IMG/VR virus record: IMGVR_UViG_3300027857_000488
Location: 1-27,109 of that record
Source of the DNA: a virus
Reading direction: 5' to 3' (one strand)
Length of the DNA stretch: 27,109 bases
Below the pieces are notes generated by a model that was not told the DNA's origin, ran no database searches, and saw only the letters and a program-made list of their open reading frames with translations. Positions 1,410 through 20,761 of this stretch are shown piece by piece. The position numbers and the translations under genes are program-made. The first letter of the stretch is position 1; the number at the start of each line of letters is the position of its first letter.

Positions 1410-2767
1410 CCAAGTGGCTCACGGCTCTTGAGATTGCGGGCATCGGCGCCAAGGGATTTCCAAAGACAGAACGAGCGATCCAGCTGTGGGCAGCCCGGGA
1501 AAACTGGGAGCGCCGCAAGCGCGCGGGCAAGGGAGGCGGTTACGAGTACCCCGCCTCTTGCCTTCCGGCCGCTTTGCAGAAAGCGATTGCCGCGGCTGCC
1601 CTCAAGGCGATGCCTCCCATGCCAATCGCGGTACAGCTTCCGCTTCCGCTCCAGACGGCCGCCGAGTTAAAGAACCATCAGCGCGACCGCATGACCGCCC
1701 GGGCCATCCTCCTGCAGCAGGTTGACGACCTGGTGTTGACGCGCGGAATCAGTCAGGGCCAGGCTGTCGCTGCACTCGTTGAGATGGCCGCTAAGGGCGA
1801 GCTGCCGCCTGAAATACAGAAGCAAGTCGGGATCGCCAATGCGCGGCCGAACTCCGACCGCAGCCTGACGCGCGCCACGGTCTATAACTGGCTGAAGGCG
1901 CGCGCGGAGGCTGGCGGCAATGTCGTAGCCCTCGCCCCCAAGGCGGCAAAGGAAGCCCCGGTTCCTGTCTGGGCGGAAACCTTCTTCAATCTGTGGGCAG
2001 ATCCGCGCAAGCCGGCGTTGACCGCCATCATGGAGGACTACTGGCCCGAATCCGTCGAGAAACCGAGCATCCATCAGGTGCGGCGCCTGCTCGACAAGGT
2101 CAGCATTCTGACCCGGAACGAGGGCCGCCTCGGGCCGCGGGAGCTGCGCAAGTTCCGTGTCTATCACGCCCGTGACACGTCCGAGCTATGGCCTGGCGCG
2201 GTGTTCGTCGGTGACGGCCATACTTTCAAGGCCGAGGTGGCGAACCCGCTCAGCGGAAAGCCATTCAGGCCCGAGGTCACCATCATTGTCGACGTCTATA
2301 CGCGGAAGATTGTCGGGTGGAGCGTCGATCTGGCCGAAAACACCCGGTCGGTGGCCGATGCGCTGCGCCATGCCGTCACCTCGGCGACACAGTGCGACAT
2401 TTTCTACTACGACAACGGCTCGGGCGCGAAAAATGTCAACTGGGATGAACCCACCACCGGCCTAGCCGGTCGCCTCGGCATCACGAAGATGCACAGCATC
2501 CCCTACAACTCCCAAGCCCGCGGCATCGTGGAGCGCCGCAACTCTACAGTCCTCCACCGGGCCGCGAAGACGATGATCAGCTATGTCGGCCAGGACATGG
2601 ACAAAGAGGCGCGACAGTCCGGCTACAAGAAGACCCGCAAGGACATGAAGAAGGCGGCGACGTCGGCCAGGCGAACGATTACCAGGCCGGCGAGCTGTTC
2701 TACATGCCGCGCAATTTCAGGACTAACAAGATCTACGGCTTCTCGCCGGTCGAGCAGATCGTGGTGA
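1406..2767 (+). pseudogene. MuA-type DDE transposase, truncated at the 3' end by a junction
   Basis: The N-terminus (WLTALEIAGIGAKGFPKTER, then GWxxR-like and EYPASCLP segments, residues 4-54) is the Mu transposase winged-helix end-binding domain. The catalytic core follows with D270 (VGDGHTF), D336 (YYDNGSG) and E376 (IVERRN), the DDE triad that binds metal for strand transfer. Mu MuA is about 660 residues; homology here stops near residue 420. After about base 2660 the frame reads portal DNA out of register, giving a serine/arginine-rich tail to the stop at 2767. The C-terminal half of MuA, which contacts MuB, and the whole MuB gene are absent. Even with an intact triad, a protein lacking that half is unlikely to do regulated phage transposition. 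Confidence 0.85.
2655..2668. other. Junction: MuA coding sequence joined to the middle of a portal gene
   Basis: Upstream, MuA reads in one frame (ending around TRKDMKKAATS). Downstream, a different frame gives GQANDYQAGELFYMPRN, the conserved middle of a portal protein. Everything that normally lies between (rest of MuA, MuB, middle genes, lysis, terminase subunits, portal N-terminus) is missing. The exact breakpoint is uncertain by about ten bases. A 21-base stretch beside it (2638-2658) recurs with one mismatch at 3501-3521. Confidence 0.75.
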
Positions 2768-5225: not shown

Positions 5226-6749
5226 ATGTTGTTCATTCCGCTGCTGAAGGTCGATGCCGCCCGGCGCATCATCATCGCCCGTCTCGATGAAACGCCCGAT
5301 CGGGCGAACATGGTCTTGGACTATGACTCGTCCAAGCCGGCTTTTCTGGAGTGGTCCCAGACCATGCAGAAGGCCTCGGGCGGCCTGAGCTACGGCAATG
5401 TGCGCGAGATGCACGGCCTGAAGGCGGCCGGCCGCGTGGTGCGCCTCGACTGCCTCGACGCCGAGAAGGCGTTCGAGTTCGAAATCGAAGTGCTCGACGA
5501 CGACACGATGCTGAAGGTCGAGACGGGGGTGCTGACCGGCATCAGCCAGGGCGGCAAGTACGGCCGCAAGTGGCGCGACGGCCCCTATACCCGTTATACC
5601 GCCGGCAAGATCAACGAGCTGAGCATCGTGGACCTGCCGTGCAACCCGGGCGGCGCCGTCATGCTGAAAGCGGACGGGACCGAGGTCGCGCTGGAATTCG
5701 TGGATGGCGGCCTCGACGCCCAATCGCGCTATGTCGGTTCCCTGCTGGTCGACGCCGAGGATCTGAACGAGTACCGCCAGATCCTGACGGCCCAGGGCGC
5801 CGACATGCTGAAGGTGCTGTTCCCCGAGGCCGGCCCCGACGCCATGCTGAAGCGCGACTATGACGCGCAGGAGCGCCTGGCGCTGGCGGCGAAGGGCGAG
5901 GCCATGGATGACGGCTCATTCCCGATCGCCGCCCGGGCCGATGTCGAGATCGCGGTGTCGGCCCACGGCTATGCCGCCGACCAGGCCGCCGCGCAGACCT
6001 GGATCACCGAGCGCGCCCTGGCGCTCGAGGCGACCGACCTGCTGCCGGAAGGCTGGGCCGGGTCGACCATGCAGAAGGGCCTCGGCAATGTGAGCCGCCT
6101 GGCCGAACTGCTGGAGTGCCTGACCTGGCTGGTGTCCGACGCGACCTGGGAGGCCAGCGCCGAGCGCGACGGCTCCAAGGTGCCCGCCCAGCTCGCGGCC
6201 TGGGTGAAGCAAGGCACCGTAATCCTCAACGCCATGTCGGCCGAGGAAACCAGCGAAGCCATGGCGGCGCTGCAGGCCCAGGTCGATGCCATCCCGATCG
6301 ACGCCACGATCGCCGCCGACATGGAAAAGGCCGCCCCCATTCTCGACATGGCCAAGGCGATCGCCGGCGATGCCGGCGTGAGCGCCTTCGTCCAGTCCAT
6401 CCATGACCAGGCCGCCCAGCTCGGCGCCTGCTGCGCCCATGACGGCGGCGGCTTGACCAACATGGTGAAAATCGCCGGCGACCTGGCCAGCACCCGCGCC
6501 CTTCTCGCCGATGTCACGGCCGAGCGCGACGACATGCAAAAGCGCATCCACCAACTCGAGGGCTTGCCCGAGCAGGGCGGCCCCGCGCGCACCAGTGCCA
6601 CCCCGGGCGCGGTGTCGAAAGGCGCCGACCATGGCCAGGGCCAAGCCGACAAGACCAAAGACATCGCCGCCGAACAGGCCGCGATCGACGCCATGCCGGA
6701 CGGCCCCGACAAGACCACCGCGCTGGTGCGGCTGGCGATGAAGTCCTAA
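5226..6749 (+). CDS. Prohead serine protease with C-terminal scaffold (XkdF/S78-like)
   Basis: Cuts scaffold and capsid proteins during head maturation. The N-terminal 150 residues have the herpesvirus-fold protease layout: YGNVREMHG with candidate catalytic H63, GVLTGISQGG with candidate nucleophile S107, and ELSIVDLPCNP (131-141), the strand typical of these proteases. Residues 220-280 contain GSFPI and a helical segment (ITERALALEATDLLPEGW) common in phage protease/scaffold proteins. The last 100 residues hold a short coiled coil (about 425-450) and a polar tail, as expected for a fused scaffold. At 507 residues it is a fused protease-scaffold rather than a stand-alone protease. The Shine-Dalgarno at 5226 is weak. 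It sits directly before the capsid gene, as usual. Confidence 0.8.
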   Translation: MLFIPLLKVDAARRIIIARLDETPDRANMVLDYDSSKPAFLEWSQTMQKASGGLSYGNVREMHGLKAAGRVVRLDCLDAEKAFEFEIEVLDDDTMLKVETGVLTGISQGGKYGRKWRDGPYTRYTAGKINELSIVDLPCNPGGAVMLKADGTEVALEFVDGGLDAQSRYVGSLLVDAEDLNEYRQILTAQGADMLKVLFPEAGPDAMLKRDYDAQERLALAAKGEAMDDGSFPIAARADVEIAVSAHGYAADQAAAQTWITERALALEATDLLPEGWAGSTMQKGLGNVSRLAELLECLTWLVSDATWEASAERDGSKVPAQLAAWVKQGTVILNAMSAEETSEAMAALQAQVDAIPIDATIAADMEKAAPILDMAKAIAGDAGVSAFVQSIHDQAAQLGACCAHDGGGLTNMVKIAGDLASTRALLADVTAERDDMQKRIHQLEGLPEQGGPARTSATPGAVSKGADHGQGQADKTKDIAAEQAAIDAMPDGPDKTTALVRLAMKS

Positions 6750-6767
6750 CCCCACGGAGCACTTTTG

Positions 6768-8303
6768 ATGTTCAACCAGGCTGCTGTTACCGAAGAAACG
6801 ATGAACCTCATGCGCGGTGCTGGCGACACCGCCGAGGATATGATCAAGGCGTGGTTCCAACCGACCGGCGCCACCACCGGCATCCAGAACTATTCGCTGA
6901 TGAAGCCGGCGCTGTCCCTGTTCCCGGTCATCACGCCGATCATGAACTCGCTGTCCATGTCGGACGACGAACAGCCCGCCGGCGGCATCCAGGCCAACTG
7001 GAAGGCGGTCACCGGCATCAACACCACGGGCATGTCGGCGGGCCTCTCGGAAGGCAACCGCGGCGGGGCGATCACCACGAGCACCGCCGACTATTATGCC
7101 GCCTACAAGTCCTTCGGCCATGACGACTTCGTCACGGACGAGGCGCGCGACGCCGCCAAGGACTATCTGGACCTCCTGGCCCGGGCCCAGGCGAACCTGC
7201 TGTTCGCCGTCCGGATCAGCATGGAGCGCGTCGTGCTGGGCGGTCAGGGCACTTACGCCCTGGCCCGGCCGGCCGCGCCGTCCCTGGCCACCGCCACCAC
7301 CGGCGGCAGCTTGGGCGCCACCCAGACCATCTCGGTCATCGTCGCCCCGCTGACCCTGTCCGGCTTCCGCAACGGCTCGATCGCCGCCGGCGTCCCGGGC
7401 CTGGTCGCGCGCACCAACATGGATGGCTCGATCGACAATTACGGCGGCGGCACCGGCCCGCGCTCGCCGAATGCCACCGTGACCACCGGCGCCGGCGCCA
7501 CCAACTCGATCACCGCGACCACGCCCGCCACCGCCGGCGTGGTCGCCTGGGCGTGGTTCTGGGGCGCGGCCGGCGCCGAGACCCTGGGCGCGATCACCAC
7601 CATCAACTCGGTGCTGATCACCGCCGCGGCGACCGGCACCCAGACCGCCGCCTCGCTCGGCGCGGCCGCCACGGACTTCAGCCAGAATTCGCTGGAGTGC
7701 GACGGCCTGATCGCCATCAACGCCAAGCAGGGCATGGGCACCTTCACCTACTCGATGCCCACCGGCGCCGCCGGCACCGGGACGCCGCTGACCGCGGATG
7801 GCAAGGGCGGCATCGTCGAGTTCGACCTGGTCACCAAATGGATGTGGGACAACCTGCGCCTCGGCCCGAGCGTGATCTACGTCTCCAGCCAGGAACAGGA
7901 GAACATCACCCAGAAGGTGCTGTCCTCGCCCAGCGGTTCCGGCGCGCAGCGGTTCGTCATCACCGCCAACCAGGGCAACATCATGGGCGGCGACCTGGTC
8001 ACGGCCTACCTGAACAAGTTCGGCAACAACTATGACGCCAAGACCGGCCAGGGCGCGAAGGTGGTCCCGATCGTCTGCCACCCGGATCTGGCGCCCGGCA
8101 CGGTGATCTTCGACACCAACGTGCTGCCCTATCCGCTGAACGACGTGCCCAGCGTCAAGCGGTTCCTGCCGATCCAGAACTGGTTCGCCACTCTGTGGCC
8201 GCGCGTCCGGCGCCGCTACGAGTACGGCGTCTATATCCGCGGCGTCCTGCAGCACTTCTTCCCGCCGTCGACGGTGGTCATCAACAACATCGCCAACGGC
8301 TAA
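6768..8303 (+). CDS. Major capsid protein with an inserted beta domain
   Basis: A 511-residue HK97-fold shell protein, recognised from its place after the protease and from its E-loop/P-domain style N-terminus (AGLSEGNRGGAITTSTADYY, then YKSFGHDDFVTDEA) and C-terminal FATLWPRVRRRYEYGVYIRG. Residues about 188-290 are a glycine/alanine/threonine-rich beta stretch (SPNATVTTGAGATNSITA, then VVAWAWFWGAAGAETL) that interrupts the fold and looks like an Ig-like or I-domain insertion exposed on the capsid surface. ATG 6768 is preferred over TTG 6765 because CGGAG lies 9 bases upstream. No defect is visible. Confidence 0.85.
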   Translation: MFNQAAVTEETMNLMRGAGDTAEDMIKAWFQPTGATTGIQNYSLMKPALSLFPVITPIMNSLSMSDDEQPAGGIQANWKAVTGINTTGMSAGLSEGNRGGAITTSTADYYAAYKSFGHDDFVTDEARDAAKDYLDLLARAQANLLFAVRISMERVVLGGQGTYALARPAAPSLATATTGGSLGATQTISVIVAPLTLSGFRNGSIAAGVPGLVARTNMDGSIDNYGGGTGPRSPNATVTTGAGATNSITATTPATAGVVAWAWFWGAAGAETLGAITTINSVLITAAATGTQTAASLGAAATDFSQNSLECDGLIAINAKQGMGTFTYSMPTGAAGTGTPLTADGKGGIVEFDLVTKWMWDNLRLGPSVIYVSSQEQENITQKVLSSPSGSGAQRFVITANQGNIMGGDLVTAYLNKFGNNYDAKTGQGAKVVPIVCHPDLAPGTVIFDTNVLPYPLNDVPSVKRFLPIQNWFATLWPRVRRRYEYGVYIRGVLQHFFPPSTVVINNIANG

Positions 8304-8309
8304 CCGGGC

Positions 8310-8327: not shown

Positions 8328-8353
8328 CCCACTTTCTGGAGCAAAGAAGCGCA

Positions 8354-8653
8354 ATGAAACTGATGAAGTCGCTGTCGGGCCACACCAGCGTGTCCCACGA
8401 GGGCAAGGAGTACAAGCCCAACAAGAAGGGCTTGTTCGAGATCGAGGACGGCCACGTCGTCGCCCTGAAAGCCCACGGTCTCCTGCTGGAAGACGAAGCC
8501 GACCAGACCGAGAAGGCCAACCAGGACGCCGCACAGCGCGCCGCCCTCGAGGCCGAGAACGCCGAGCTGAAGCGCCAGCTGGCCGACTCGACGCTGGCCA
8601 AGGAAAACGAGGAGCTGAAGAAGCAGCTCGCCGACCTGCAGAAGGCCAAATAA
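8354..8653 (+). CDS. Small coiled-coil protein following the capsid gene
   Basis: A 99-residue protein with two parts: a compact beta-like N-terminus (HEGKEYKPNKKGLFEIEDGH, residues about 16-35, followed by VVALKAHGLLLE) and a C-terminal coiled coil with repeated AENAELKRQLAD/KENEELKKQLAD heptads. The beta part resembles small accessory proteins often found after capsid genes; the coiled coil implies oligomerisation or contact with another head protein. ATG 8354 follows TGGAGC by about 13 bases; a longer frame starting inside the capsid gene is rejected. A decoration or head-tail role is inferred from position only. Confidence 0.65.
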   Translation: MKLMKSLSGHTSVSHEGKEYKPNKKGLFEIEDGHVVALKAHGLLLEDEADQTEKANQDAAQRAALEAENAELKRQLADSTLAKENEELKKQLADLQKAK

Positions 8654-8656
8654 GCC

Positions 8657-9214: not shown

Positions 9215-9714
9215 GCGTCGAGGTCGAAAGCGTCGGCATCGAGGAGGCCATCGCCCACTTCCAGCAGATCCCGGCCGAGGTGCGCCTGGCGCTCGAGGCC
9301 CAGGTCCACATGGAGGCCCTGCACCTGGTCGAGGTCATCAAGGATGAGTACCTGTCCGGCCAGGTGCTGGGCATTCGCAGCGGCCGTTTGCGCCGCTCGG
9401 TCCATGAACTCGAGCTGCACGCCGGCGGCGACAGCGTCGAGGCGGCGGTGGGCGTCAATCTCGGTGATGCGGGCTATGCCGGGTTCTGGGAATACGGCTT
9501 CACCGGCACCGAGGACGTGAGGGAACACCTTCGGGAAATCACCCAGGCTTTCGGCCGCCCGATCTCGCCGCGTGAAGTCGTGGTGCGGCAGCACACCCGC
9601 CAGGTCGACCAGGCGCCTCGGTCCTATCTGCGTGCCGCCCTGGCGGCGGAGGCGGCCGGCATCATCGAACGCATCAAGGCCGCAGCTCTGCGCGCCGCAG
9701 GAGGAGAGAACTGA
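9211..9714 (+). CDS. HK97 gp10-like tail completion / head closure protein
   Basis: A 167-residue protein with the gp10 family pattern: a leading amphipathic helix (EEAIAHFQQIPAEVRLALEA), RSGRLRRSVH in the middle, GFWEYGFTGTED as the characteristic aromatic loop, and APRSYLRAALAAEAAGIIER near the end. In HK97-like phages it completes the head-tail joint. ATG 9211 comes from the ATGA overlap with the connector gene; a longer frame from 8782 is ignored because its extra part is an arginine/proline-rich shadow of the connector gene. Confidence 0.75.
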   Translation: MSVEVESVGIEEAIAHFQQIPAEVRLALEAQVHMEALHLVEVIKDEYLSGQVLGIRSGRLRRSVHELELHAGGDSVEAAVGVNLGDAGYAGFWEYGFTGTEDVREHLREITQAFGRPISPREVVVRQHTRQVDQAPRSYLRAALAAEAAGIIERIKAAALRAAGGEN

Positions 9715-10139
9715 TGGTCCGCGAGACCTATTACACCGCCCTGTTCAATCTGCTGATGACCCTGTCGGGGACGCAGTTCAAGACGGTGTCCCGCAAGCTG
9801 AGGCTGCCGGCCAACATGAACCCGGCCGATTATGACGCCCTGTTCATGACGGTCGACAAGCAGCCCATCAAGCAGCAGCTGGGGCTCCCGGCCGTCCACA
9901 CGCTCGGCGCCCAGCTGACGATCTACGTCAGCAACACCGACGACAAGGTCTCGGCCGATCCGAAGCTCAACGCGGCGATCGACGCTGTCGAGAAGGTGCT
10001 CAAGCCGTGCGGCCTGCCGACCCAGACCCTCGGCGGCCTGGTGCAGAACTGCTGGATCGAAGGGACGATCGAGGTCTTCTCCGGGTCGAACTCGCAGTTC
10101 GCCGCCGCCGTCATCCCCGTGAAAATCCTCGTCCCCTGA
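9714..10139 (+). CDS. Tail terminator-like protein (siphophage type)
   Basis: A 141-residue protein in the position of the tail terminator, between gp10 and the expected tail tube. It starts MVRETYYTALFNLLMTLSGT and ends with a beta strand (AAAVIPVKILVP); the alternation of an N-terminal helix with beta strands (QLTIYVSN, GTIEVFSG) fits the terminator fold. A strong GAGGAGAG ribosome-binding sequence precedes it, and its start overlaps the previous stop (TGATG). The gene is complete. The next expected gene is missing because a junction lies 6-11 bases after the stop codon. Confidence 0.65.
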   Translation: MVRETYYTALFNLLMTLSGTQFKTVSRKLRLPANMNPADYDALFMTVDKQPIKQQLGLPAVHTLGAQLTIYVSNTDDKVSADPKLNAAIDAVEKVLKPCGLPTQTLGGLVQNCWIEGTIEVFSGSNSQFAAAVIPVKILVP

Positions 10140-10144
10140 AAGGA
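10139..10144 (+). promoter_or_regulatory. Orphan ribosome-binding site
   Basis: AAAGGA directly after the tail terminator gene has the form and spacing of a Shine-Dalgarno sequence for a following plus-strand gene, presumably the siphophage tail tube, but no plus-strand start follows: within a few bases the sequence becomes an antisense tape-measure fragment. Confidence 0.35.
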
Positions 10145-10522
10145 AACCCGAGCAGCGCCGCGCAAGGTCTGCAGCTGATCGGTGGTGACGCCGATGCCGA
10201 CCGCACTGCGGCTGATCTCAGCGCCCAGCCGCCCCCATTCGGTCGCTAACGCCGCGACTGCGGCGACACTGCCGACGCCGGCAACGGCAGCCAGCGGCGC
10301 GGCGATCGCCGACACCTTGCTGGCCACATCGCCGGCGGCGCGACCGACGTCACCCATGCCCCGGGCGACGCGGTCGAACCCCATTTCTTTACCGAAGCGC
10401 CCGACAGCAGCCTGCACCTGGCCGATCGGCCTGGTCAGTTGGCTGAAGGACGCATTGACCTTGCGGACGGTCGCCGTCGCGCGATCGACAGCCGCGATCA
10501 CGATTTGGAACTGATTGGCCAT
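10145..10522 (-). pseudogene. Tape measure protein, N-terminal fragment only, on the minus strand
   Basis: The first 126 residues of a tail tape measure protein: a short beta start (MANQFQIVIAAVDRATATVR), helical repeats (FSQLTRPIGQVQAAVGRFGK), then a hydrophobic stretch (AAPLAAVAGVGSVAAVAALA, about 74-93), and GIGVTTDQLQTLRGAARV, where such proteins normally go on for several hundred more residues. After about base 10147 the frame continues as antisense of the tail terminator gene, so the gene is cut. Its start lies five bases after the end of the chaperone extension, in the normal tail-operon order. Without its remainder no tail length can be set. Confidence 0.8.
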
Positions 10523-10527
10523 CGGGA

Positions 10528-10677
10528 TTACGGCTCCGCCGCCTTCTTGAGAAGAAGCGCCTGGCTATTCCACCAGAGTAATTCAGTCCAGGTGAGGCCC
10601 CACGCATCGCGGGGGCCCCAGCCGTAGAACTTGGTCAAACCGGCGAGGACTAGCTGCCAGTTTTTTGGTCGTTGGAA
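10528..10677 (-). CDS. Tail assembly chaperone C-terminal extension (reached by -1 frameshift)
   Basis: In the -1 frame relative to the chaperone gene, a 49-residue segment starts at the slippery site and reads RPKNWQLVLAGL, then TKFYGWGPRDAWGLTWTELL, ending KKAAEP. This G-W/L-T-W-x-E pattern is typical of the downstream (gpT/E') part of tail chaperones, which binds the tape measure protein. It has no start codon of its own in a sensible place, and it ends five bases before the tape measure start. The predicted fusion product is 141 residues. Confidence 0.75.
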   Translation of the reverse strand, partial: FQRPKNWQLVLAGLTKFYGWGPRDAWGLTWTELLWWNSQALLLKKAAEP

Positions 10678-10952
10678 AAAAAACCGGAGACGTAGCTCAT
10701 CGCCTCGTTGAAGTCCCGGATCGACATTTTTCCGATCTCGCCCTCGGTGATCCCGGAGACCAGCGAAATCAGCAGGATGTTCGAGCCCTGCGAGCTTTTC
10801 TCGGCCCGCTTGCTGACCTGCTCGATCTCATAGGCCGTCGGCTCGCGCAGCGTGATCGTTTTGATCTCGCGGTCCTGCAGCTTGATCGGCTTGCGCAGGG
10901 TGAGGGACTTTTCTTCCTCGGGGATGGCCGAGGCGCCGTTTTCGGTGCTCAT
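10650..10952 (-). CDS. Tail assembly chaperone, zero-frame product (Mu gp41-like)
   Basis: A 100-residue protein with SLTLRKPIKLQDREIKTITL and LREPTAYEIEQVSKRAE, the pattern of the Phage tail assembly chaperone E/41/14 family, ending GFFSNDQKTGS. It normally coats the tape measure protein before tube assembly. It lies four bases after the tail tube stop, with GGAG about ten bases upstream of its ATG. The run of eight T residues near its end carries the programmed frameshift signal. The gene is inverted relative to the flanking structural genes. Confidence 0.8.
   Translation of the reverse strand: MSTENGASAIPEEEKSLTLRKPIKLQDREIKTITLREPTAYEIEQVSKRAEKSSQGSNILLISLVSGITEGEIGKMSIRDFNEAMSYVSGFFSNDQKTGS
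10677..10683 (-). promoter_or_regulatory. Programmed -1 ribosomal frameshift heptamer
   Basis: On the minus strand the chaperone codons read GGT TTT TTT TCC, so a T TTT TTT heptamer is correctly aligned in the zero frame (X XXY YYZ). Slipping back one base after codon 92 opens the 49-residue extension frame. The A-run on the plus strand is 10676-10683. A second candidate run, AAAAAAC, is out of register for -1 slippage. Confidence 0.75.
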
Positions 10953-10956
10953 GGTC

Positions 10957-11334
10957 TCAGTTCTCCGTCACGCTGCCCTGGAAGCCTTCCCAGCGCACCT
11001 CCAAGGTGCCCTCTTCCGACTTCACTTCCTGCGCATCGCCGACCGTCCACATATTGCGGCCGATGATCAGCTTGCCGTTGGCGAGCTGGGCAGAAATCGT
11101 GTTGTTGGTCATGGCGTTGAAATCCGCCACGGTCAGGCCGCCGGAGTCGCGGATGGTCGCCACGATATAGGGCGCCATCGGCTTCTCTTTGTAGCCGTGG
11201 ACGGCATCCATGCCGGACAACGTCTCACGCGAGACACTGCCCGGGTTGTAGGCGAAATCGCCCGAGACGGAATAGGCGACCCCGTCAATGGTCAGGCTCG
11301 CCGTACCCGCGAGCCGGTTGGTGGTATCGGCCAT
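10957..11334 (-). CDS. Tail tube protein (Mu gpM-like)
   Basis: A 125-residue tail tube protein recognised from NRLAGTASLTIDGVAYSVSG at the start, SRETLSGMDAVHGYKEKP in the middle and LANGKLIIGRNMWTVGDAQ and GTLEVRWEGFQG towards the end, all typical of the Mu tube family. It stacks in hexameric rings inside the contractile sheath. A perfect AAAGGAG lies eight bases before its ATG. The gene is intact but lies on the strand opposite its cognate sheath gene, with its 5' end facing the head-tail joining gene, whereas in Mu it follows the sheath. Confidence 0.85.
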   Translation of the reverse strand: MADTTNRLAGTASLTIDGVAYSVSGDFAYNPGSVSRETLSGMDAVHGYKEKPMAPYIVATIRDSGGLTVADFNAMTNNTISAQLANGKLIIGRNMWTVGDAQEVKSEEGTLEVRWEGFQGSVTEN

Positions 11335-11372
11335 AAAGGTCGCTCCTTTCGCCGGTCCAAGGGCGACTGATC
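11335..11372. other. Divergent junction between tail tube and head-tail joining genes
   Basis: The left part (11343-11349 on the minus strand) is the tube gene's AAAGGAG. The right part reads, in plus sense, CGG TCC AAG GGC GAC TGA just before the GTG at 11373, which looks like the tail end of a missing upstream gene plus a ribosome-binding AAGGG. The breakpoint is therefore probably near 11350-11355. I see no promoter in the 38 bases. Confidence 0.5.
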
Positions 11373-11702
11373 GTGGCGGTCAACTGGGACGCGATGGTCC
11401 TGGGGCCGCTGATGGGCGTGTTCGGCGAGCCGGCGACCTACCTGCCGGCCGCCGGCGGCTCCTACTTGATCACGGGTGTCTTCGACGAAGCCTACCGTGA
11501 ATTGGAGCTGATCGACGGCGCCAGCGCGATCACCACGGAACTTCCCGTTCTGGGTGTTCGCCTGGCGGCCTTCCCGGTGCCGCCTGTCCAAAACGACCGC
11601 GTCTCGGTCGCTAGCGTCAACACGACCTATGTGGTCCGCGAGGTTCGTCCGGACGGCCACGGATACGCAAAGCTGATGCTGAACTTCGTGAGTTCGCCAT
11701 GA
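11373..11702 (+). CDS. Head-tail joining / attachment protein (lambda FII-like)
   Basis: A 109-residue protein with FGEPATYLPAAGGSYLITGV, then FDEAYRE and PVLGVRLAAFPVPPVQNDRV, the pattern of small phage head-tail attachment proteins; the C-terminal strands (YVVREVRPDGHGYAKLML) complete a beta barrel. It starts with GTG, two bases after a stop that may belong to a lost upstream gene, with AAGGG about ten bases upstream. It overlaps the next gene by ATGA at 11699-11702. Confidence 0.65.
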   Translation: MAVNWDAMVLGPLMGVFGEPATYLPAAGGSYLITGVFDEAYRELELIDGASAITTELPVLGVRLAAFPVPPVQNDRVSVASVNTTYVVREVRPDGHGYAKLMLNFVSSP

Positions 11703-12340
11703 CGGTCACTCGCACAGCGGGCCTGCTGGCCCTTGTCCAGACCATTCTGACCGGCAGCACCGCGGCCGGTCAGAATGTCTTCGTTCCTGGCGACTGGCCG
11801 ACCTGGGCGGGGGAATTTCCCCTCCTATTCTGCCAGGCTATCCGGGAGCAGAAGGTGCAGCAGGGTAGGTCTGGCCTCAATTTCGAGGTCACCACGACGA
11901 TCCGGGTCACCGGCCGCGTGGCAGCGCCAGCGCAGGCCGCCGATCTCGGCGCTTCGGTTGCCGAGGGCGAGGCCTGGTCGCTTGCCCAGCAGGTCGAGGT
12001 CGCCATCATCAATGCGCCGGCGCTGATGCCGCTCCTATCTCAGTTCCCCTTCGTTGACACCCAGATCAAGGTGAGCGCGGAGGGCAGGGAGCACTTCGCC
12101 GAGTTCGTCATGGATATCGGCATGCTGTTTTATCAGGGCTGGGAGGCTTTCTGTCAGCCCCCGACCGAAACTCTGACCGAGGTTACCGTCACCACGGATC
12201 TGACCAACGTCTTCGACCCGGCCGGCACCTATCCGGACGGGCTGTTCCCCCAGGCTGTCACCCCCGCGCCGCGGACGTCCGGACCGGACGGACGGGCCGA
12301 GGGCAACGGCCTCGACATCATTCTCCCGCAACAGGAGTGA
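11699..12340 (+). CDS. Tail protein, probable terminator of the contractile tail
   Basis: A 213-residue protein in the Mu gp37-like position between the joining protein and DUF2635. It has an N-terminal helix (TRTAGLLALVQTILTGST), then beta strands (LNFEVTTTIRVTGRVAAP) and a helix (GEAWSLAQQVEVAIINAP), consistent with a terminator-type fold, and a disordered C-terminal tail after about residue 170 rich in P/T/G/D. I recognise it from context and general layout rather than from a specific motif. AGGAG at its 3' end serves the following gene. Confidence 0.55.
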   Translation: MTVTRTAGLLALVQTILTGSTAAGQNVFVPGDWPTWAGEFPLLFCQAIREQKVQQGRSGLNFEVTTTIRVTGRVAAPAQAADLGASVAEGEAWSLAQQVEVAIINAPALMPLLSQFPFVDTQIKVSAEGREHFAEFVMDIGMLFYQGWEAFCQPPTETLTEVTVTTDLTNVFDPAGTYPDGLFPQAVTPAPRTSGPDGRAEGNGLDIILPQQE

Positions 12341-12343
12341 CGC

Positions 12344-12550
12344 ATGTTCGTCAAACCCGCCGACGGTCTCAGCGTGCGAGACCCGGTCAAGCTCGACCTT
12401 TTGCCGCCGGAGGGCCGGGAAGTTCCCGACGGCGATCTTTACTGGCAGCGCCGCCTCGACTGCGGCGACTGCGTCATCGCGAACGCCGTTCGCGCGACCA
12501 AGCCCGCGGCGCCGAAGCCGGCGCTCGCTGAAGGGAGCACCAAGGAATGA
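12344..12550 (+). CDS. DUF2635 small tail protein (Mu gp38-like)
   Basis: A 68-residue protein with the DUF2635 pattern: FVKPADGLSVRDPVKLDLLP, then EGREVPDGDLYWQRRLDCGD. The C-terminal 20 residues are a low-complexity alanine/proline/lysine tail. In Mu-like phages it sits directly before the sheath gene, as here. AGGAG lies six bases upstream of its ATG, and its stop overlaps the sheath start (ATGA at 12547-12550). Its function is not established. Confidence 0.75.
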   Translation: MFVKPADGLSVRDPVKLDLLPPEGREVPDGDLYWQRRLDCGDCVIANAVRATKPAAPKPALAEGSTKE

Positions 12551-14040
12551 CTACCATCCCGTTCCAGCACATTCCGAGCAATATCCGGGTGCCGCTGTTC
12601 TATGGCGAAGTCAGCAACAGCCAGGCCAACACCGGCGGCACCAACCAGCGCGCGCTGCTGATCGGCCAGATCCTCGCCACGGGCGCCGCCGCTCCGAATG
12701 TACCGCTGCGCAGCCAGGGGCCTGCCGACGCCATCCTGCAGGGCGGCAACGGCTCGATCCTGGCCCTGATGGCCAACGCCTATTTCGACAACGACGAGTT
12801 CGGCGAGGTCTGGTATCTGCCGCTCAGCGATGCCGGTGGTGCCGTCGCCGCGACCGGTTCGATCAACATCACCGCCGCCCCGACGGCTGCGGGCACGCTG
12901 TCGGTCTATATCAAGGGTCAGCTCGTCGCCGTGCCGATCACGGCCGCTGAGACGCCGGCGGCGATCGCCACCGCGCTCGCTGCCGCGATCAACGCGCCCG
13001 GCAATCTGCCGGTCAATGCTACGGTCGACGGCACCACGCCCAGCAAGGTCGACCTGGTCGCCAAGAATGCCGGTCTGGTCGGTAACGATATCGACGTTCG
13101 CCTGAACTATCAGGGCGCCGCTGCCGGCGAGGTGACGCCGACTGGCATGACGGTGACGATCACCGCCATGGCAAACGGTGCCACCAACCCGACGCTGACG
13201 ACCGGCCTGGCCAATTTGCTGGACATGCCCTTCGACTTCATCGCGTGCTCGTTGACCGATGCCGCCTCTATGACGGCGCTGCAGGCGTTCCTGAGCGATA
13301 CCACGGGCCGGTGGAGCTGGCAGCAGCAGGTCTACGGCCATGTCTTCTACGCATACCGGGGCACCGGTGCGTCGCAGACCACCTTTGGCGTGACCCGCAA
13401 CAACCAGCATGAGTCGGTGATGGGTTTCTACGACTCGCCCTCGGCTGCCTGGGAATGGTCGGCGGCGATCGCCGGCGCCGTCGCGCAGAGCGTCCGGGCC
13501 GATGCGGCGCTGCCGCTGCAGACCCTGCCGGTTTATGGCGTGCTCGCGCCGCCGCTGGCGTCCCGTTTCAATCTCGCCGAGCGGAACATCCTGCTGTATG
13601 ACGGGATCTCGACCTTCACGGTCGATCAGAGCGGGCAGATCTATCTGGAAAACGTGATTACCACGTACCAGACCAATGCCTTCGGCCAGGCTGACACCAG
13701 CTATCTGCAGGTCGAAACCCTCTTCACCCTGATGTTCGTTCTGCGGGCCATGGCCACCATGGTCACGTCGAAGTACGCCCGGGTGAAGCTGGCCGCCGAC
13801 GGCACGCGGATCGCGCCCGGCTCGGCGATCGTCACGCCCAGCACGATCAAGGCGGACATCATCGCCAAGTATCAGGAGCTGGAGCAGGACGGCTATGTGC
13901 AGAACAGCGCCGCCTTCGCCAAGGCGGTGATCGTCCAGCAGAACGCCACCAACCCGAACCGCATCGACGTGCTGTGGCCCGGCACGCTGATCGACCAGCT
14001 GCGCATCTTCGCGCTGCTGGCGCAGTTCCGCCTTAGCTAA
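12547..14040 (+). CDS. Contractile tail sheath protein (Mu gpL-like)
   Basis: A 497-residue sheath subunit that surrounds the tail tube and contracts on infection. The Mu gpL pattern runs the whole length: IPFQHIPSNIRVPLFYGEVS at the start, FDNDEFGEVWYLPLSDAGG, WSWQQQVYGHVFYAYRGTGA, LAERNILLYDGISTFTVDQS, and TLIDQLRIFALLAQFRLS at the end. A beta insertion (residues about 100-215) is the variable outer domain. Length and ends look complete or nearly so; a few terminal residues could be missing because a junction follows the stop codon immediately. Its presence upstream of siphophage tail-tip genes is anomalous. Confidence 0.9.
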   Translation: MTTIPFQHIPSNIRVPLFYGEVSNSQANTGGTNQRALLIGQILATGAAAPNVPLRSQGPADAILQGGNGSILALMANAYFDNDEFGEVWYLPLSDAGGAVAATGSINITAAPTAAGTLSVYIKGQLVAVPITAAETPAAIATALAAAINAPGNLPVNATVDGTTPSKVDLVAKNAGLVGNDIDVRLNYQGAAAGEVTPTGMTVTITAMANGATNPTLTTGLANLLDMPFDFIACSLTDAASMTALQAFLSDTTGRWSWQQQVYGHVFYAYRGTGASQTTFGVTRNNQHESVMGFYDSPSAAWEWSAAIAGAVAQSVRADAALPLQTLPVYGVLAPPLASRFNLAERNILLYDGISTFTVDQSGQIYLENVITTYQTNAFGQADTSYLQVETLFTLMFVLRAMATMVTSKYARVKLAADGTRIAPGSAIVTPSTIKADIIAKYQELEQDGYVQNSAAFAKAVIVQQNATNPNRIDVLWPGTLIDQLRIFALLAQFRLS

Positions 14041-14046
14041 ACCGCG

Positions 14047-14565
14047 GTGGCGGCCTGGAGCACGCCGCGCCATCGTTGGACGCTGACCTTCAACCTTCTG
14101 CGACAGGGCTTTTTCCTGGGTGAGGACCTGGCCGAGATGGCGGAGTTGTTCGGGTTCTACTGCGCCCGCAACGCCGGCTTCGACAGCTTCCTCTACCAGG
14201 TCGGCGATGACAATTCGGTCACCGACCAGGTCATCGGGGTGACCGATGGGCTGAACACGGGTTTTCAGGCTTACAAGTCGTTCGGCGACCTGGTCGAGCC
14301 TTGCTATGCCATCAAGGCGGTGACCAGCGTCACTTGCAACGGGATCACCACCCAGAACCCGGTGTTCAACCCCTGGGGCTATACCGGCCTGTCCGGCGGT
14401 CCCGGCTTCATCTTCCTGCCCAGCGTCTATCCGGCTGGGCATCAGATTACGGCGACCTTCTCCTACTACTACCCCTGCCGGTTCGATGCGGATTCCTGCG
14501 ATTTCGAGGAATTCGGCCAAGGCCTTTACAAGGTCAACCAGCTCACTTTTACGAGCATTAAATAA
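14047..14565 (+). CDS. DUF2460 distal tail protein (GTA gp12-like), 5'-truncated
   Basis: A 172-residue protein matching the middle and end of DUF2460/TIGR02217 tail proteins: RHRWTLTFNLLR, FYCARNAGFDSFLYQVGDDN, SVTDQVIGVTDGLNTGF, and the conserved end CRFDADSCDFEEFGQGLYKV. Family members normally begin with about 35-40 further residues (a P-x-L-P-G start and an SGRE-type strand) before the W-x-x-P-R-x-R-W segment. Here the frame begins at AAWSTPRHRW, its GTG has no Shine-Dalgarno sequence, and the base after the sheath stop is already in frame. I infer that the native start was lost at the junction. It binds the tail tip hub in siphophages. Confidence 0.75.
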   Translation: MAAWSTPRHRWTLTFNLLRQGFFLGEDLAEMAELFGFYCARNAGFDSFLYQVGDDNSVTDQVIGVTDGLNTGFQAYKSFGDLVEPCYAIKAVTSVTCNGITTQNPVFNPWGYTGLSGGPGFIFLPSVYPAGHQITATFSYYYPCRFDADSCDFEEFGQGLYKVNQLTFTSIK

Positions 14566-14831
14566 TGAAGATCTGGCTCTTCCAGTTCGCCGACCAGGCG
14601 TGCCCCCTGCAGAGCGCGCGCGTTGCCGCTCCCGATCGCATCCAGGCCTGCGCGGCCATGCAGGTCATGCTGGTCGCCCTGCAGCTCGACATCGCCCTCG
14701 ATGGCGCCCGGCCGCGCCCGGCCGAGGCCGTCGTCCTGTCGTATCTCGGTGAAGGCGACTATCCGGCCGCGCTGATCATCTCGGCGATGAGCCGCACCGG
14801 CGAGACCGTCAGCAATGAGGTTGCCCGATGA
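14565..14831 (+). CDS. Small tail-tip module protein of unknown function
   Basis: An 88-residue protein between DUF2460 and DUF2163 that starts in a TAATG overlap and ends in an ATGA overlap, so it is clearly part of the operon. It is mostly helical and hydrophobic (AMQVMLVALQLDIALD, then YPAALIISAMSRTGE) without a membrane-length run. I do not recognise a named family. Confidence 0.6.
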   Translation: MKIWLFQFADQACPLQSARVAAPDRIQACAAMQVMLVALQLDIALDGARPRPAEAVVLSYLGEGDYPAALIISAMSRTGETVSNEVAR

Positions 14832-15982
14832 AGCCTGTCGCACCCGAGCTGCTGAGCCTGCTGGCGACCCGCCAGTTCTTCGCGGCCGACCTTTACACCA
14901 TCACCCTGGTGACGGGAGAAACGCTGCGCTACTGCGGCGGCGATGCCGACATCACCTGCAACGGCTTCCTTTTCTCGGCCGGCGGGATGATCGGCCCCTA
15001 TTGGGACCGCAGCGACAACAAGGCGAAGTGCCATTGGAAAGTCGGGGTGGATGTCGACAGCCTGATCATCGACATGCTGCCTGGGTCTGCCACCGTGCTG
15101 GGCGTGCCGATTCTGCAGGCGATCCTCAGCGGCGTGTTCGATGACGCGGAATTCACCCTCGATCGCGTCTACATGCCCACCTGGGGCGACACCCGCCGCG
15201 GCTTCATCCGCCTGTTCGTCGGCCGGGTCGCCGAGGTCGATGTGAGCCGCAGCATCGCCACCTTCACCATCACCTCGCACCTCGAGCTGCTGAACATCCA
15301 GATGCCCCGGAACCTCTATCAGGCCGGATGCGTCAACACCCTCGGCGATCAGGCCTGCGGCGTGGATATCAGCCAATATATGTCGACCGGCATCGTAGCG
15401 GCGGGATCGACCGTCGCCGGCGTGATGGCGACGATCGCCGGCCAGTTCCAGCAGGGCTATTTCGACCTCGGGACGCTGACCTTCACCAGCGGCCAGTACC
15501 AAGGCCAGACCTTCACGGTCAAACAGGTGTCCTATGGGGCACCCTCGGTCATCAACCTGCTGGGCTTCCTGCCGGCGCCGCCAGCCGCCGGCGACAGCTT
15601 CAATATCTACGCGGGTTGCGACAAGTCCTGCGACCTGCCGCTGACCGTCAATGGCATCATGACCGAGGGGCAGAACAACCTCGATCTGGTCAACGGGAGC
15701 GCCGGCTCGACCGCGCTGATCGGCTACACGATCACCGGCTATGGCATCCCCGCCGGCGGCTACACCGTCACCGGCTATGAGTCCGGTGCGCCTGGCACCC
15801 CGCCGGTGCCGACCAACGGCGCGCTGCTGCTGTCGGGCACCTTCCAGACCTCCTCGGTCGGGCAGAGCCACATTTACACCCTCACCAAGCCTGGCCTGGT
15901 CCTGAACGGGTGCTCCAAGTTCAACAATCTGGCGCGGTTCCGGGGCTTTCCCTTTGTTCCCGCGCCGAGCACGGCAGCCTGA
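14828..15982 (+). CDS. DUF2163 tail-tip hub protein (GTA gp13-like)
   Basis: A 384-residue protein with the DUF2163/TIGR02218 pattern: LLATRQFFAADLYTITLVTG, ISRS-like VDVSRSIATFTITSHLELLN, MPRNLYQAGCVNTLGDQACG, and the C-terminal NGCSKFNNLARFRGFPFVP with paired cysteines (the family is cysteine-rich at GC.N.G and DKSCD-like positions). In gene transfer agents and related siphophages this hub protein connects the distal tail to the fibre protein. A GAGG lies upstream of ATG 14828. A 55-residue insertion (about 275-330: VNGSAGSTALIGYTITGYGI and following) is extra beta material compared with the shorter members I know. Confidence 0.85.
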   Translation: MKPVAPELLSLLATRQFFAADLYTITLVTGETLRYCGGDADITCNGFLFSAGGMIGPYWDRSDNKAKCHWKVGVDVDSLIIDMLPGSATVLGVPILQAILSGVFDDAEFTLDRVYMPTWGDTRRGFIRLFVGRVAEVDVSRSIATFTITSHLELLNIQMPRNLYQAGCVNTLGDQACGVDISQYMSTGIVAAGSTVAGVMATIAGQFQQGYFDLGTLTFTSGQYQGQTFTVKQVSYGAPSVINLLGFLPAPPAAGDSFNIYAGCDKSCDLPLTVNGIMTEGQNNLDLVNGSAGSTALIGYTITGYGIPAGGYTVTGYESGAPGTPPVPTNGALLLSGTFQTSSVGQSHIYTLTKPGLVLNGCSKFNNLARFRGFPFVPAPSTAA

Positions 15983-15983
15983 C

Positions 15984-16445
15984 ATGCAGTACGCCGCCGA
16001 GCGCGCCGCCGTGATCGCCGAGGCAAAGACCTGGGTCGGAACGCCTTACCACCATGCCGGCCAGGTCAAAGGCGCGGGCGTGGACTGCCTGACCTTGCTC
16101 GCTTGCGTCTATGCCAACGCGGGCGTGATAGACCGGCCGACCATCCCCTATTACACGCGGGATTGGTATTTGCACCGTGAGGAAGAGTTGTATCTGGGCG
16201 GTGTCATGCAGTTCTGCGACCAGGTCGAGGAACTGCTGCCGGCCGACATCGCCGTCTGGAAGATCGGCCGCTGCTACTCCCACGGCGCCATCGTCGTGGA
16301 CTGGCCGCTGATCATCCATGCCCATGTCGGCCGCGGGACTTACCTCGAGAACGTCGACCAGGCGCCCAACCTCACGCAGAACCGCGCGATCGCCGGCAGC
16401 GTGGGCGCCCCGGTCAAGTTCTTCCGCCTGAAGAGGTGGATGTAA
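15984..16445 (+). CDS. NlpC/P60 tail-tip peptidase (GTA gp14-like)
   Basis: A 153-residue cell-wall peptidase with the catalytic layout of the family: C35 in AGVDCLTLLA, H100 in CYSHGAIVV and H112 in IIHAHVG, following the AKTWVGTPYHHAGQVKGAG substrate loop. It is expected to cut host peptide cross-links as the tail tip enters. ATG 15984 is one base after the previous stop. The stop TAATG overlaps the next start. Confidence 0.85.
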   Translation: MQYAAERAAVIAEAKTWVGTPYHHAGQVKGAGVDCLTLLACVYANAGVIDRPTIPYYTRDWYLHREEELYLGGVMQFCDQVEELLPADIAVWKIGRCYSHGAIVVDWPLIIHAHVGRGTYLENVDQAPNLTQNRAIAGSVGAPVKFFRLKRWM

Positions 16446-19400
16446 TGGCCGGTGTACTCGGGGGAAACAAGCCAAAGGCGCCGGCCTATACCGGCCTGCA
16501 GCTGAACACTTCGGCTTACGGGCTGCCGGTGCCGATCGTCATCGGCCGCACCAGGATTGCGCCGAATGTCGGCTGGTTCGAGAACATGCAGTTGCACCCG
16601 GGCAAGCAGCCCGGCAAGGGCACCGGCAGCAGCTCGACCGGCACCCAGGACAATTACACCGTCGATCTGATCCTCATGCTCTGCGAGGGGCCGATCTCGG
16701 GCGTCGGCACCATCTGGCAGAACGGGAACAACAACGTCACCAACCTGGCCACGCTGGTGATGAATTTCAGCGCCGGCAACTACGGCCAGCCTGTCTGGCC
16801 CTATCTCGAGCAGAACTATCCGAACCAGGCGCTGGGCTACAGCGGCTTCTCGTTCCTCTACCAGGCCGGCTACAGCTTGGGGAACACGTCGGCGCTCCCG
16901 AACTGGGGCATCGAAGCTTATGGCTTTTTGGAGGGGACGGCGCCGAACGGCATCGATGCCGATCCCAGCCAGGCGATCCCGCTGCTGCTGTCGAACCCGT
17001 CGTTCGGCGCCGGCTTCCCTGCCGATCGGATCGGCGAGCTGGTCACGCAGAGCGAGACCCACGTCGTCCCGGCCGGGACTGCGCCCTCGGTCGCCGTCAC
17101 GGCGAATTGGGTTTACAACCTGTGTGTCGTCGACGACGCCGGCGAGCTTTATACCTGCGTCGCGCCTGGCGTGACGCCTGGCCCGGATCAGTACAGCTTC
17201 GTGAACGGCACCTACACCTTCGCCCCGTCCAGCGCGGGGAAGTCGGTGACGATCCGGTTCGCCAGCAATGCCGGTCTCGCGACCTACCAATCCTATGCGC
17301 TGGCGCTCGGGCTCTGGATCTCGCCGGCCTATACCTCGCAGCAGGCGGCGGCGTCGATGATCAACGACATCGCCACCTTGACCAATTCGGCCATCGTCTG
17401 GTCGGCTGGCTCCTTGAGCGTGAAGCCTTACGGCACCGTCGATGTCACCGGCAACGGCTACACCTACCAGGCCCAGACTGCGCCGCTCTTCTCCCTCACG
17501 GATGACGATTTCCTGCCGAACCAGGGATCGAGCAGCAGCTCGACCGACGATCCGGTTGTGGTGACCAGGACGCGGTCGTCGGATCAGTTCAACGATGTCC
17601 AGCTCGAGGTGCTCGACCGGGGCAATCAATACGCTCCGGTGCCGGTCGACGTCGACGACCCGGCGCGGATCACAGCCCGCGGCTATCGCCCCCAGGGCAG
17701 CCAACAGGCCCACATCTTCTCCGATCCGGTCGCCGGACACACCGCCGCCCAGCTGCTGCTGCAGCGGCAATTTGTCCGGAACGGGGGCACCTTCACGGTG
17801 GACGAGCGCTATTGCGTCCTCGACGGCATGGACATCATCGGCATCACCGACCAGGCCCTGGGATGGAATGACCATTGGGTGCAGCTGGTCGAGGGGACCG
17901 AGAACGACGACGGCAGCTGGACGCTGATCGCCGATCAGTACCCGACCGGGACTGGGGCGCCGGCCAGCTATTCGGTCAATGTCGGCCAGCCGCGGCCGAT
18001 CGACCAGAACCAGCTGGCGGCGCCCGTGAACCTGCCGGTCATCTTCGAGCCCTCGGCCGACCTCACCCAGGCCGGTGCCCAGATCTGGGTTGGCGTGTCG
18101 GGCGGCAACAACGGCGTGTTCGATCCGAACTGGGGCGGCGCCGATGTGCTGGTCTCGGCCGACAACGTCGAATACGAGAACATCGGCACCATCAAGCGGG
18201 CCGCTTGCCAGGGCTATCTCACTGCCGCACTGGCGGCGCCGGCGGGCGCCAATCCGGACGAGACGAGTTCGCTGTCGGTCGACCTCACGGAAAGCGCCGG
18301 CACACTGATCACCGCGACCCAGGCGGACGCTGCTGCAGGCCGGACGCTCTGCTGGGTCGACGGCGAAATCATCGCCTATGCGACCGCCACGCTCACGGGC
18401 CAGAACCAGTACACCCTGACCTATCTGGAGCGTGGCCTCTACGGAACGACGCCGGCCGCGCACCCGGCTGGAACCGCCTTTCTTCGGCTGAACGATGCCG
18501 TCTTCAAGTACGGCCTGCCCAAGGAGAATGTCGGCGCGCCGATCTGGCTCAAGTTCATTTCGTTCAACATCTATGGTGAAGGTCGCGGCGACCAATCGAC
18601 CGCCGTCGCCTACAGCCTGACGCCGACCGGCAACGGGTTCTTCGTCGCGCCGCCGACCGACCTGCAGGCCTCCCAGGCCGTGGTGTCTTCGTCCCTCGGA
18701 ATGCGCGTCGATATCACCGTCACCTGGACCGCCAGCGCCACCAGCTGGGTCTCGGACTACCAGGTGTCCTATCAGATGGGCAACGGTGCCTGGACGACCT
18801 TCACCACCGGCGGCCAGCCGGCGGCCGACATCCCCAATGTCCTCGAGGCCGTCTACACCATCAAAGTCGTGGCGGTCGGCATGGGTCTGACCTCCGAGCC
18901 GGTCGAGATTACCTGGGACGTGACCACCGACAGCCTCTCGCTCCCGGCCGTCACGGGCCTGGAGCTGACCGGCCAGGCCAATGGGGCGGAGTTCGTCGGC
19001 CAGGACGCCCATTTCGACTGGCGCATGAACTCGTCCTATGGCAGCTCGGAAGCCCTGACGGCGAGCAACAGCGCCGGTTCCAACTATCTCGATTCCTGGT
19101 TCGCCAACTATCGCGTGACGATCTTCGATAGCGCCAACAACGCGCTCCGGACCGAGACCGTCACAGATCCTTCCTACGTCTACACCTTCGAGAAAAACGC
19201 GTCTGATCCGGGCGGCCCGCACCGCTCCTTCCGGATCGAGGTGGTGTGGACGGACAAGCTCAATCGTGTGTCGGCGCCGGCGTCGATCACGGTCAGCAAT
19301 CCGGCGCCGTCGTTCCCCACCAAGATCGTGCCGCTGTCGGCCTTCAAGACCGTCTCGGTGCAATACCAGCCGCCGGCCGATCTGGACTATGCCGGCACGC

Positions 19401-20761
19401 TGGTTTTCATGCAGACCGAGTCATTCGGCGGCGCTGATCCGGACCCGTCCACCCTGGTCTATGACGGCACCGACACGCTGGTGAATATCCCGACCGCCGC
19501 CGCGGGCACGCAATATTTCCTGGTGCTGGCGTCATATGACAGCTTCGGAAAGTCCGGGCTGAACTACTCGTCGGAATACACCACCACCACTGCCCTGGTG
19601 GGCTCGACCGACATCGCCACAGCGGCGATCACCACCCAGCAGCTGGACCAGGATCTCAACAGCGCGATCGACCTGGTCACGGCCGGCCCGGAAACGCCTG
19701 GCTCCCTGCAGGCGGCGCTGGCGTCGATCCTGACCCTGGGCGACCAGTACACCCAGATCAACGACACCGTCGAAAGCCTCTCGGTGACGGTCGGGGGCAA
19801 TACCGCCACCATCACCAACGAGCAGAGCGTCCGCGCCGCGGCCGACAAGGCCAACGCCTCGGCGATCTCGGCCTTGTCCGCGCTGGTGGGGAATAGCTAT
19901 GCCACGATCACCCAGCTCAACAGCGCGATCGCGACGGCCGAGCAGGCAGCCACTCAGCAGGTCAACACGCTCTCGGCCAGCCTGGGCGGAACTTATGCCA
20001 CCTTCACCACGGTCAATCAGGCGATCGCCGGCATTAACGCCTCGTCGTCGACCTTCCTGCAGCAGCTCAATTCCACGGTCGGGAGCGCCACCACCTCGAT
20101 CCAGCAGCAGGCCAGCACCATCAACGGCCTGACCGCCCAATACACGGTGAAGATCGATGCCAACGGCCATGTCGCCGGCTTCGGCCTGGCCAGCACGCCC
20201 GTCAATGGCACGCCTTTCAGCTCCTTCGTGGTGAACGTCGACGACTTCGCCGTGGCCGCGCCCGGCGCCACCAGCTTCGCCCTCGAGGTCGTCAATGGGG
20301 TGGTGACCATCCCGAACGCGGCCATTCAGAACGCTGCGATCACCAACGCCAAGATCGGCAACCTGGCGGTCGATAATTCGAATATCGCCGCCGGGGCGGC
20401 CACGGTCGCCGGCAGCGTCAACATCGGCGCCACCACGGGCACCGGCGGCTACGTCAACGTGGCCACCACCTGGATCACCCTCAAGAGCGCGGCGACCGTA
20501 GTTCTCCAGGCGAGCTGGGGCTGCAATTACGACAGCGGTTTCGGGAACACCAACCAGCAGTTCTTCGGGCAGATCTTCGGCAATACGAACGCGACCGGGC
20601 CTGTCCTTCATACCGGCGTCGCTACTACCCAGACCCCGGCCTACATGTGGTCGACCACCCTGCCTCAGGGCACCTACGAGGTGGTCTTCTGGTGGCAGGC
20701 CGACAACAGCCACGTCCAGATCCTCGCCGGATCGATGGCCGTTATTGCGAGCCAGAAATAG
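16445..20761 (+). CDS. Tail-tip host-specificity protein (lambda J / GTA gp15-like)
   Basis: A 1438-residue central tail-tip protein. Residues 1-180 match the J/gp15 N-terminal hub (GLPVPIVIGRTRIAPNVGWF, ILMLCEGPISGVGTIWQNG); residues about 280-560 hold the Phage-tail_3-like region; about 730-960 is an Fn3-like beta section (ITVTWTASATSWVSDYQVSY); 1050-1240 is helical/coiled-coil (SVRAAADKANASAISALSAL, then QLNSAIATAEQAATQQVNTL). A DUF1983-like segment follows with YTVKIDANGHVAGFGLAST and FAVAAPGATSFALEV, ending in an added beta domain. ATG 16445 is preferred over the upstream GTG 16436, with GAGG about 8-10 bases upstream. It recognises the host or carries the receptor-binding tip. Confidence 0.85.
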   Translation: MAGVLGGNKPKAPAYTGLQLNTSAYGLPVPIVIGRTRIAPNVGWFENMQLHPGKQPGKGTGSSSTGTQDNYTVDLILMLCEGPISGVGTIWQNGNNNVTNLATLVMNFSAGNYGQPVWPYLEQNYPNQALGYSGFSFLYQAGYSLGNTSALPNWGIEAYGFLEGTAPNGIDADPSQAIPLLLSNPSFGAGFPADRIGELVTQSETHVVPAGTAPSVAVTANWVYNLCVVDDAGELYTCVAPGVTPGPDQYSFVNGTYTFAPSSAGKSVTIRFASNAGLATYQSYALALGLWISPAYTSQQAAASMINDIATLTNSAIVWSAGSLSVKPYGTVDVTGNGYTYQAQTAPLFSLTDDDFLPNQGSSSSSTDDPVVVTRTRSSDQFNDVQLEVLDRGNQYAPVPVDVDDPARITARGYRPQGSQQAHIFSDPVAGHTAAQLLLQRQFVRNGGTFTVDERYCVLDGMDIIGITDQALGWNDHWVQLVEGTENDDGSWTLIADQYPTGTGAPASYSVNVGQPRPIDQNQLAAPVNLPVIFEPSADLTQAGAQIWVGVSGGNNGVFDPNWGGADVLVSADNVEYENIGTIKRAACQGYLTAALAAPAGANPDETSSLSVDLTESAGTLITATQADAAAGRTLCWVDGEIIAYATATLTGQNQYTLTYLERGLYGTTPAAHPAGTAFLRLNDAVFKYGLPKENVGAPIWLKFISFNIYGEGRGDQSTAVAYSLTPTGNGFFVAPPTDLQASQAVVSSSLGMRVDITVTWTASATSWVSDYQVSYQMGNGAWTTFTTGGQPAADIPNVLEAVYTIKVVAVGMGLTSEPVEITWDVTTDSLSLPAVTGLELTGQANGAEFVGQDAHFDWRMNSSYGSSEALTASNSAGSNYLDSWFANYRVTIFDSANNALRTETVTDPSYVYTFEKNASDPGGPHRSFRIEVVWTDKLNRVSAPASITVSNPAPSFPTKIVPLSAFKTVSVQYQPPADLDYAGTLVFMQTESFGGADPDPSTLVYDGTDTLVNIPTAAAGTQYFLVLASYDSFGKSGLNYSSEYTTTTALVGSTDIATAAITTQQLDQDLNSAIDLVTAGPETPGSLQAALASILTLGDQYTQINDTVESLSVTVGGNTATITNEQSVRAAADKANASAISALSALVGNSYATITQLNSAIATAEQAATQQVNTLSASLGGTYATFTTVNQAIAGINASSSTFLQQLNSTVGSATTSIQQQASTINGLTAQYTVKIDANGHVAGFGLASTPVNGTPFSSFVVNVDDFAVAAPGATSFALEVVNGVVTIPNAAIQNAAITNAKIGNLAVDNSNIAAGAATVAGSVNIGATTGTGGYVNVATTWITLKSAATVVLQASWGCNYDSGFGNTNQQFFGQIFGNTNATGPVLHTGVATTQTPAYMWSTTLPQGTYEVVFWWQADNSHVQILAGSMAVIASQK

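Follow-up and report, generated by a model that had tools for sequence, protein, structure and literature searches.

Genes and features of the window

The window, by which we mean the whole 27,109-base stretch of DNA analysed, carries a siphophage-type gene series into which a block of contractile-tail genes is set. It is the minus strand of G000:C145:21407-48515, on a contig of 67,350 bases, and the source assembly (4.88 Mb, 195 contigs) was rated 100% complete with 1.66% contamination. The features are listed below in window coordinates, with J0 to J3 denoting the junctions.

1406..2660, plus strand: MuA transposase, ~418 of ~690 residues from the N-terminus, without its C-terminal part (PF02316, HTH_Tnp_Mu_1, and PF00665, rve)
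2661..2669: J0, truncated MuA joined to truncated portal
2670..4770, plus strand: C-terminal part of the portal (PF04860) fused to a MuF-like protein, with a C-terminal PBECR1 domain
5226..8303, plus strand: backbone head genes (protease/scaffold, major capsid)
9714..10139, plus strand: siphophage tail terminator, intact (phrog_8150)
10139..10147: J1, stop codon of the siphophage terminator against antisense tape-measure residue 127
10142..10522, minus strand: contractile-type tape measure, first 127 residues only (similarity to genomes G029 and G034)
10650..10952, minus strand: tail assembly chaperone (TAC), Mu gp41 type (PF10109, E=7e-19)
10957..11334, minus strand: contractile tail tube (PF10618, E=7e-38; phrog_185)
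11344..11350: TCCTTTC, inverted copy of GAAAGGA at 10138-10144, in the ribosome-binding region of the tube
~11351..11365: J2, upstream of the tube against upstream of the attachment gene
11373..11702, plus strand: head-tail attachment protein, Phage_attach (PF05354, E=7e-20; phrog_82)
11699..12340, plus strand: tail terminator of the contractile donor (phrog_6774)
12344..12550, plus strand: DUF2635 (PF10948)
12547..14040, plus strand: tail sheath, intact, 497 aa (PF04984/PF17482; phrog_165, E=2e-172)
14038..14041: J3, sheath stop codon directly adjoining codon ~37 of DUF2460
14041..14565, plus strand: DUF2460 protein without its N-terminal ~36 residues (PF09343 from profile position 35)
14828..20761, plus strand: backbone tail tip (Gp84/BR0599, NlpC and an Rcc01698-like host-specificity protein of 1,441 aa)

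Bacterial (host-like) genes flank the window at both sides on the contig. The motif TTTTAGA/TCTAAAA was found near the window only at -744, -627, -574 and 27127. Transposable phages carry transposase-binding sites at such end positions, and the motifs at both ends are probably such sites; judged from their positions, the prophage probably extends from about -750 to 27,150. The host flanks and Mu-like end motifs together indicate that the element is integrated, with both likely transposable-phage ends. No TG..CA termini with an exact 5-bp target duplication were found at the prophage ends.

A truncated transposable siphophage backbone

The backbone runs from left to right as MuA, portal-MuF, protease, major capsid, connectors, tail terminator, DUF2460, Gp84/BR0599, NlpC and the Rcc01698-like protein. 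Its MuA has its closest counterparts in transposable siphophages, for example Pseudomonas phage MP22 (Casadabanvirus), with 37% identity to the MP22 transposase in an alignment that stops at residue 419 of the window protein and at 413 of 690. The DDE transposase that marks a transposable (Mu-like) phage is present, though truncated. MuB and the replication and late-activator genes that should come after MuA are absent, and MuA runs straight into the portal; the element was therefore classed only as a defective derivative of a transposable phage. No relatives of this MuA were found in the viral contigs, and a search for the MuA C-terminal domain gave no signal in a setting where the control genomes were likewise silent.

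Compared with MP22, the stretch from the MuA C-terminus to the portal start is missing, a deletion of ~10-11 kb. Its edges are placed where MuA similarity ends, at residue 419, and where nucleotide similarity to the best backbone relative begins, at 2670. Even without the tail block, this deletion makes the prophage defective. The loss takes with it MuB, the middle/lysis region, the terminase and the portal start. The portal lacks its N-terminal third, since the PF04860 match begins at profile position ~107-123. Searches of the remaining genome did not recover this portal N-terminus, and a terminase (PF03237) could be found in no part of the genome. Portal and MuF form a single open reading frame (2704-4770) with a PBECR1 nuclease-like end, that is, a portal-MuF-toxin-like fusion.

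The best backbone relative is L200 (IMGVR_UViG_3300001356_000007), which is collinear with the window (portal 82%, major capsid 72%, protease 60%, terminator 64%) and shares nucleotide similarity with it from 2670 in the portal to 10140. Its head part is intact, with a probable large terminase, an 883-aa portal-MuF fusion and the head genes. After its terminator come a small gene, tube, chaperone, a 963-aa tape measure and DUF2460; the terminase, tube and chaperone of L200 were named from sequence and position. Locus L026 has the same order of tape measure and DUF2460, and its DUF2460 homologue is 227 aa long. The window, in contrast to L200, is without its own tube, chaperone, tape measure and DUF2460 start and has foreign contractile genes instead, so that nothing between its terminator and DUF2460 corresponds to the tube, chaperone and full tape measure of a siphophage. 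The proposal of the first-pass annotation that the block replaces these three genes thus agrees with what L200 and L026 carry at this place. A search of the genome with the L200 tape measure returned only a weak match (C53:36-341), which was rejected as the missing native gene because it lies in another prophage, one that has a tube and chaperone of its own. Neither second copies nor missing halves were found elsewhere in the genome.

The contractile-tail block

The block (10140-14040, ~3.9 kb) lies between the siphophage terminator and the truncated DUF2460 gene, and all seven of its genes match contractile-tailed phages or prophages. The nearest genome match is G034 (sheath 71%, tube 70%, attachment protein 65%, terminator 61%, tape measure 61%), with G029 closer for the tube, tape measure and terminator. 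The tape-measure fragment has 66% identity to G029 (L178/L197, 802-aa tape measure) and 58-61% to G034, and the donor terminator has 61-68% to the G034 and G029 proteins. All the block genes match one kind of donor, which fits the capture of a fragment from a contractile-tailed phage. Profile matches and coordinates bear out the strand assignment made earlier, with tube, chaperone and tape-measure fragment on the minus strand and the sheath and joining genes on the plus strand.

The nearest named contractile phages are Citrobacter phage phiNP and Serratia phage vB_SspM_BZS1, whose sheaths are 57% and 53% identical to that of the window. In phiNP the order is attachment, terminator, DUF2635, sheath, tube, chaperone and tape measure, consecutive and on one strand, and the circularisation and baseplate genes come after these seven. 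The same seven genes in the window are permuted, partly inverted and cut: sheath, tube, chaperone and tape measure are neither codirectional nor consecutive, and the tape measure retains 127 of ~800 residues. No other part of the genome yielded its remainder, and the window shows no baseplate genes of a contractile tail. The block had been called a Mu-type tail. Its tail genes do resemble those of Mu, but among named phages phiNP and BZS1 are closest, the attachment gene belongs to the lambda-FII-like Phage_attach family, and the transposable part is the siphophage backbone, not the tail block.

Junctions of the block

At J1, nucleotide similarity to L200 ends at 10140 and tape-measure similarity ends at residue 127 (10142). 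J2 is inverted, and the donor coordinates jump by ~2.7 kb across it. Gene ends coincide with both edges of J2 and with one edge each of J1 and J3, while the remaining edges cut genes. With these refined junctions and the gene calls, the block is indeed inserted, permuted and partly inverted inside the siphophage operon, as had been suggested. J1 and J2 share the pair GAAAGGA/TCCTTTC, within ribosome-binding-site-like sequence. If the 1.2-kb segment were flipped about these 7-mers, the tube would follow the terminator immediately and have a good ribosome-binding site. An inverted 7-bp match of this kind is expected by chance in about 9% of random pairs of stretches, and the pair is suggestive only as a seed or flip site. 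None of 2.9 million viral contigs contains the junction sequences of J1-J3 (22-23-mers). A possible 5-bp duplication flanking the block (AAACC near 10143-10147 and 14039-14043) is not claimed, because it depends on the unseen ancestral sequence.

Gene order in relatives

The sheath lies upstream of the tube on the same strand in all 86 loci having both genes, and the 17 loci with attachment gene, sheath, tube and tape measure all show the canonical one-strand order. For the backbone, the terminator is upstream of the DUF2460 or Gp84 gene on the same strand in 53/53 loci, with a gap of 2.5-6.9 kb to DUF2460 where both genes are seen. No sheath was found in any of these 53 siphophage-backbone relatives, and no locus mixes a sheath with this backbone. 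The loci are partly near-duplicates of each other, so the counts are not numbers of independent events. Since the contractile and backbone relatives are all normal and L200 keeps its own tail genes, the tail-gene order of the window is, on these sequence comparisons, derived, and it is unique among the relatives searched. Undoing the 1.2-kb inversion would still leave the block circularly permuted, in line with the earlier note, given the position of the sheath in the relatives. Relatives having the window order as their norm, which would have spoken against a rearrangement, were looked for among the 86 loci and did not appear; a conserved alternative gene order is rejected on this ground.

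Origin of the arrangement

We consider it probable that the window holds a recently crippled Mu-like (transposable) siphophage prophage with a captured contractile-tail fragment, and that the rearrangement is real. The middle of its genome is missing, truncated MuA being joined to truncated portal, and a contractile-phage fragment of ~3.9 kb stands where its own tube, chaperone, tape measure and DUF2460 start should be. The fragment derives from genes in the order seen in phiNP, from attachment gene to tape measure; it is now permuted, and its 1.2 kb of tube, chaperone and tape measure is inverted. We infer the number and order of steps as a capture by illegitimate recombination and an inversion that came then or together with it. 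Several non-homologous or microhomology joins may have been involved, perhaps seeded at ribosome-binding-site-like stretches. Ku-based end joining was rejected because no Ku protein was found. The resulting tail operon could presumably not make a tail, since tube and tape measure are encoded on the strand opposite to the operon, the tape-measure gene is cut short as well, and the window shows no baseplate genes of the contractile type; a working hybrid tail is very unlikely.

Terminase, portal start and tape-measure remainder were looked for elsewhere in the genome without success, so pieces placed in other parts of the assembly do not account for the losses. The surviving reading frames are open, which points either to recent damage or to an artefact. 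Several observations speak against this reading: four joins without premature stops are more damage than expected for so young an element, no Ku end-joining protein was found, the ends show no canonical target duplication, and the block junctions occur in no viral contig.

In the strongest competing explanation, siphophage and contractile-phage fragments of one sample, or strand-switch products of multiple displacement amplification, were stitched together into a chimera, and the organism itself would not carry the joins. It has been reported that more than 85% of amplification chimeras are inverted with a deletion, and that priming at 2-21 complementary nucleotides occurs in more than 70% of junctions (PMC1855051). 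J2, with its inversion and ~2.7 kb jump, belongs to the commonest class of such chimeras (PMC1855051), short homologies are present in the form of the 7-bp inverted pair, the remaining reading frames are open, and the block junctions are found in this assembly only, which consists of 195 contigs. However, several independent events, two of them between different phages, would have had to win the consensus within ~12 kb, and the missing parts do not turn up as other contigs. The damage falls mainly in this one prophage, and general scrambling is not seen, given the host flanks, the completeness estimate and a second, different prophage at G000:C53:1-12000 (L202). The latter has codirectional structural genes over its first 12 kb and ends at the contig end, inside its own tape measure; together with the completeness and contamination rating, it suggests that assembly scrambling is not general. 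A chimera is a serious though less probable explanation; the block looks like recombination debris or, less probably, a product of the assembly, and not like a new tail that works.

A lineage-specific normal arrangement, conserved in close relatives outside the collections, is highly improbable. The sampled relatives include no genome of the same genus, but all of them, same-family ones included, are canonical, and the arrangement cuts conserved genes. It is just as improbable that the joins are real and that the 1.2-kb tube-chaperone segment inverts in living cells, an exchange between contractile and flexible tail types caught in mid-course. Least credible of all is a viable hybrid or switchable phage in which the tail genes alternate by inversion between the 7-bp repeats at 10138 and 11344: although the repeats stand at both ends and the flip serves the tube well, their match is near chance, and even a flipped segment would have a tape measure that stops at residue 127 and a permuted order. 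Moreover, three genes (MuA, portal and DUF2460) have lost parts, terminase is not found, and 0/86 relatives depart from the canonical order.

The preferred reading, a crippled siphoprophage with a captured fragment, places the element in a well-known kind, the defective mosaic prophages, of which it is an unusually scrambled instance. Like these in general it has internal deletions, truncated genes and foreign modules; unlike the usual ones its tail module is permuted and partly inverted while the other reading frames are without decay. If real, it would be a snapshot of raw, non-functional recombination between two tail types before selection removes it, and would bear on the origin of phage mosaicism. 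A sheath together with siphophage genes is not enough to call a virus a new hybrid, and contigs of this sort should be checked at the level of reads. Among the backbone relatives, L029 (IMGVR_UViG_3300025664_000005, 6900-9985) has a tube gene, but none of its reading frames ahead of the Gp84 gene is evidently long enough for a full-size tape measure; its tail region is possibly another deletion.
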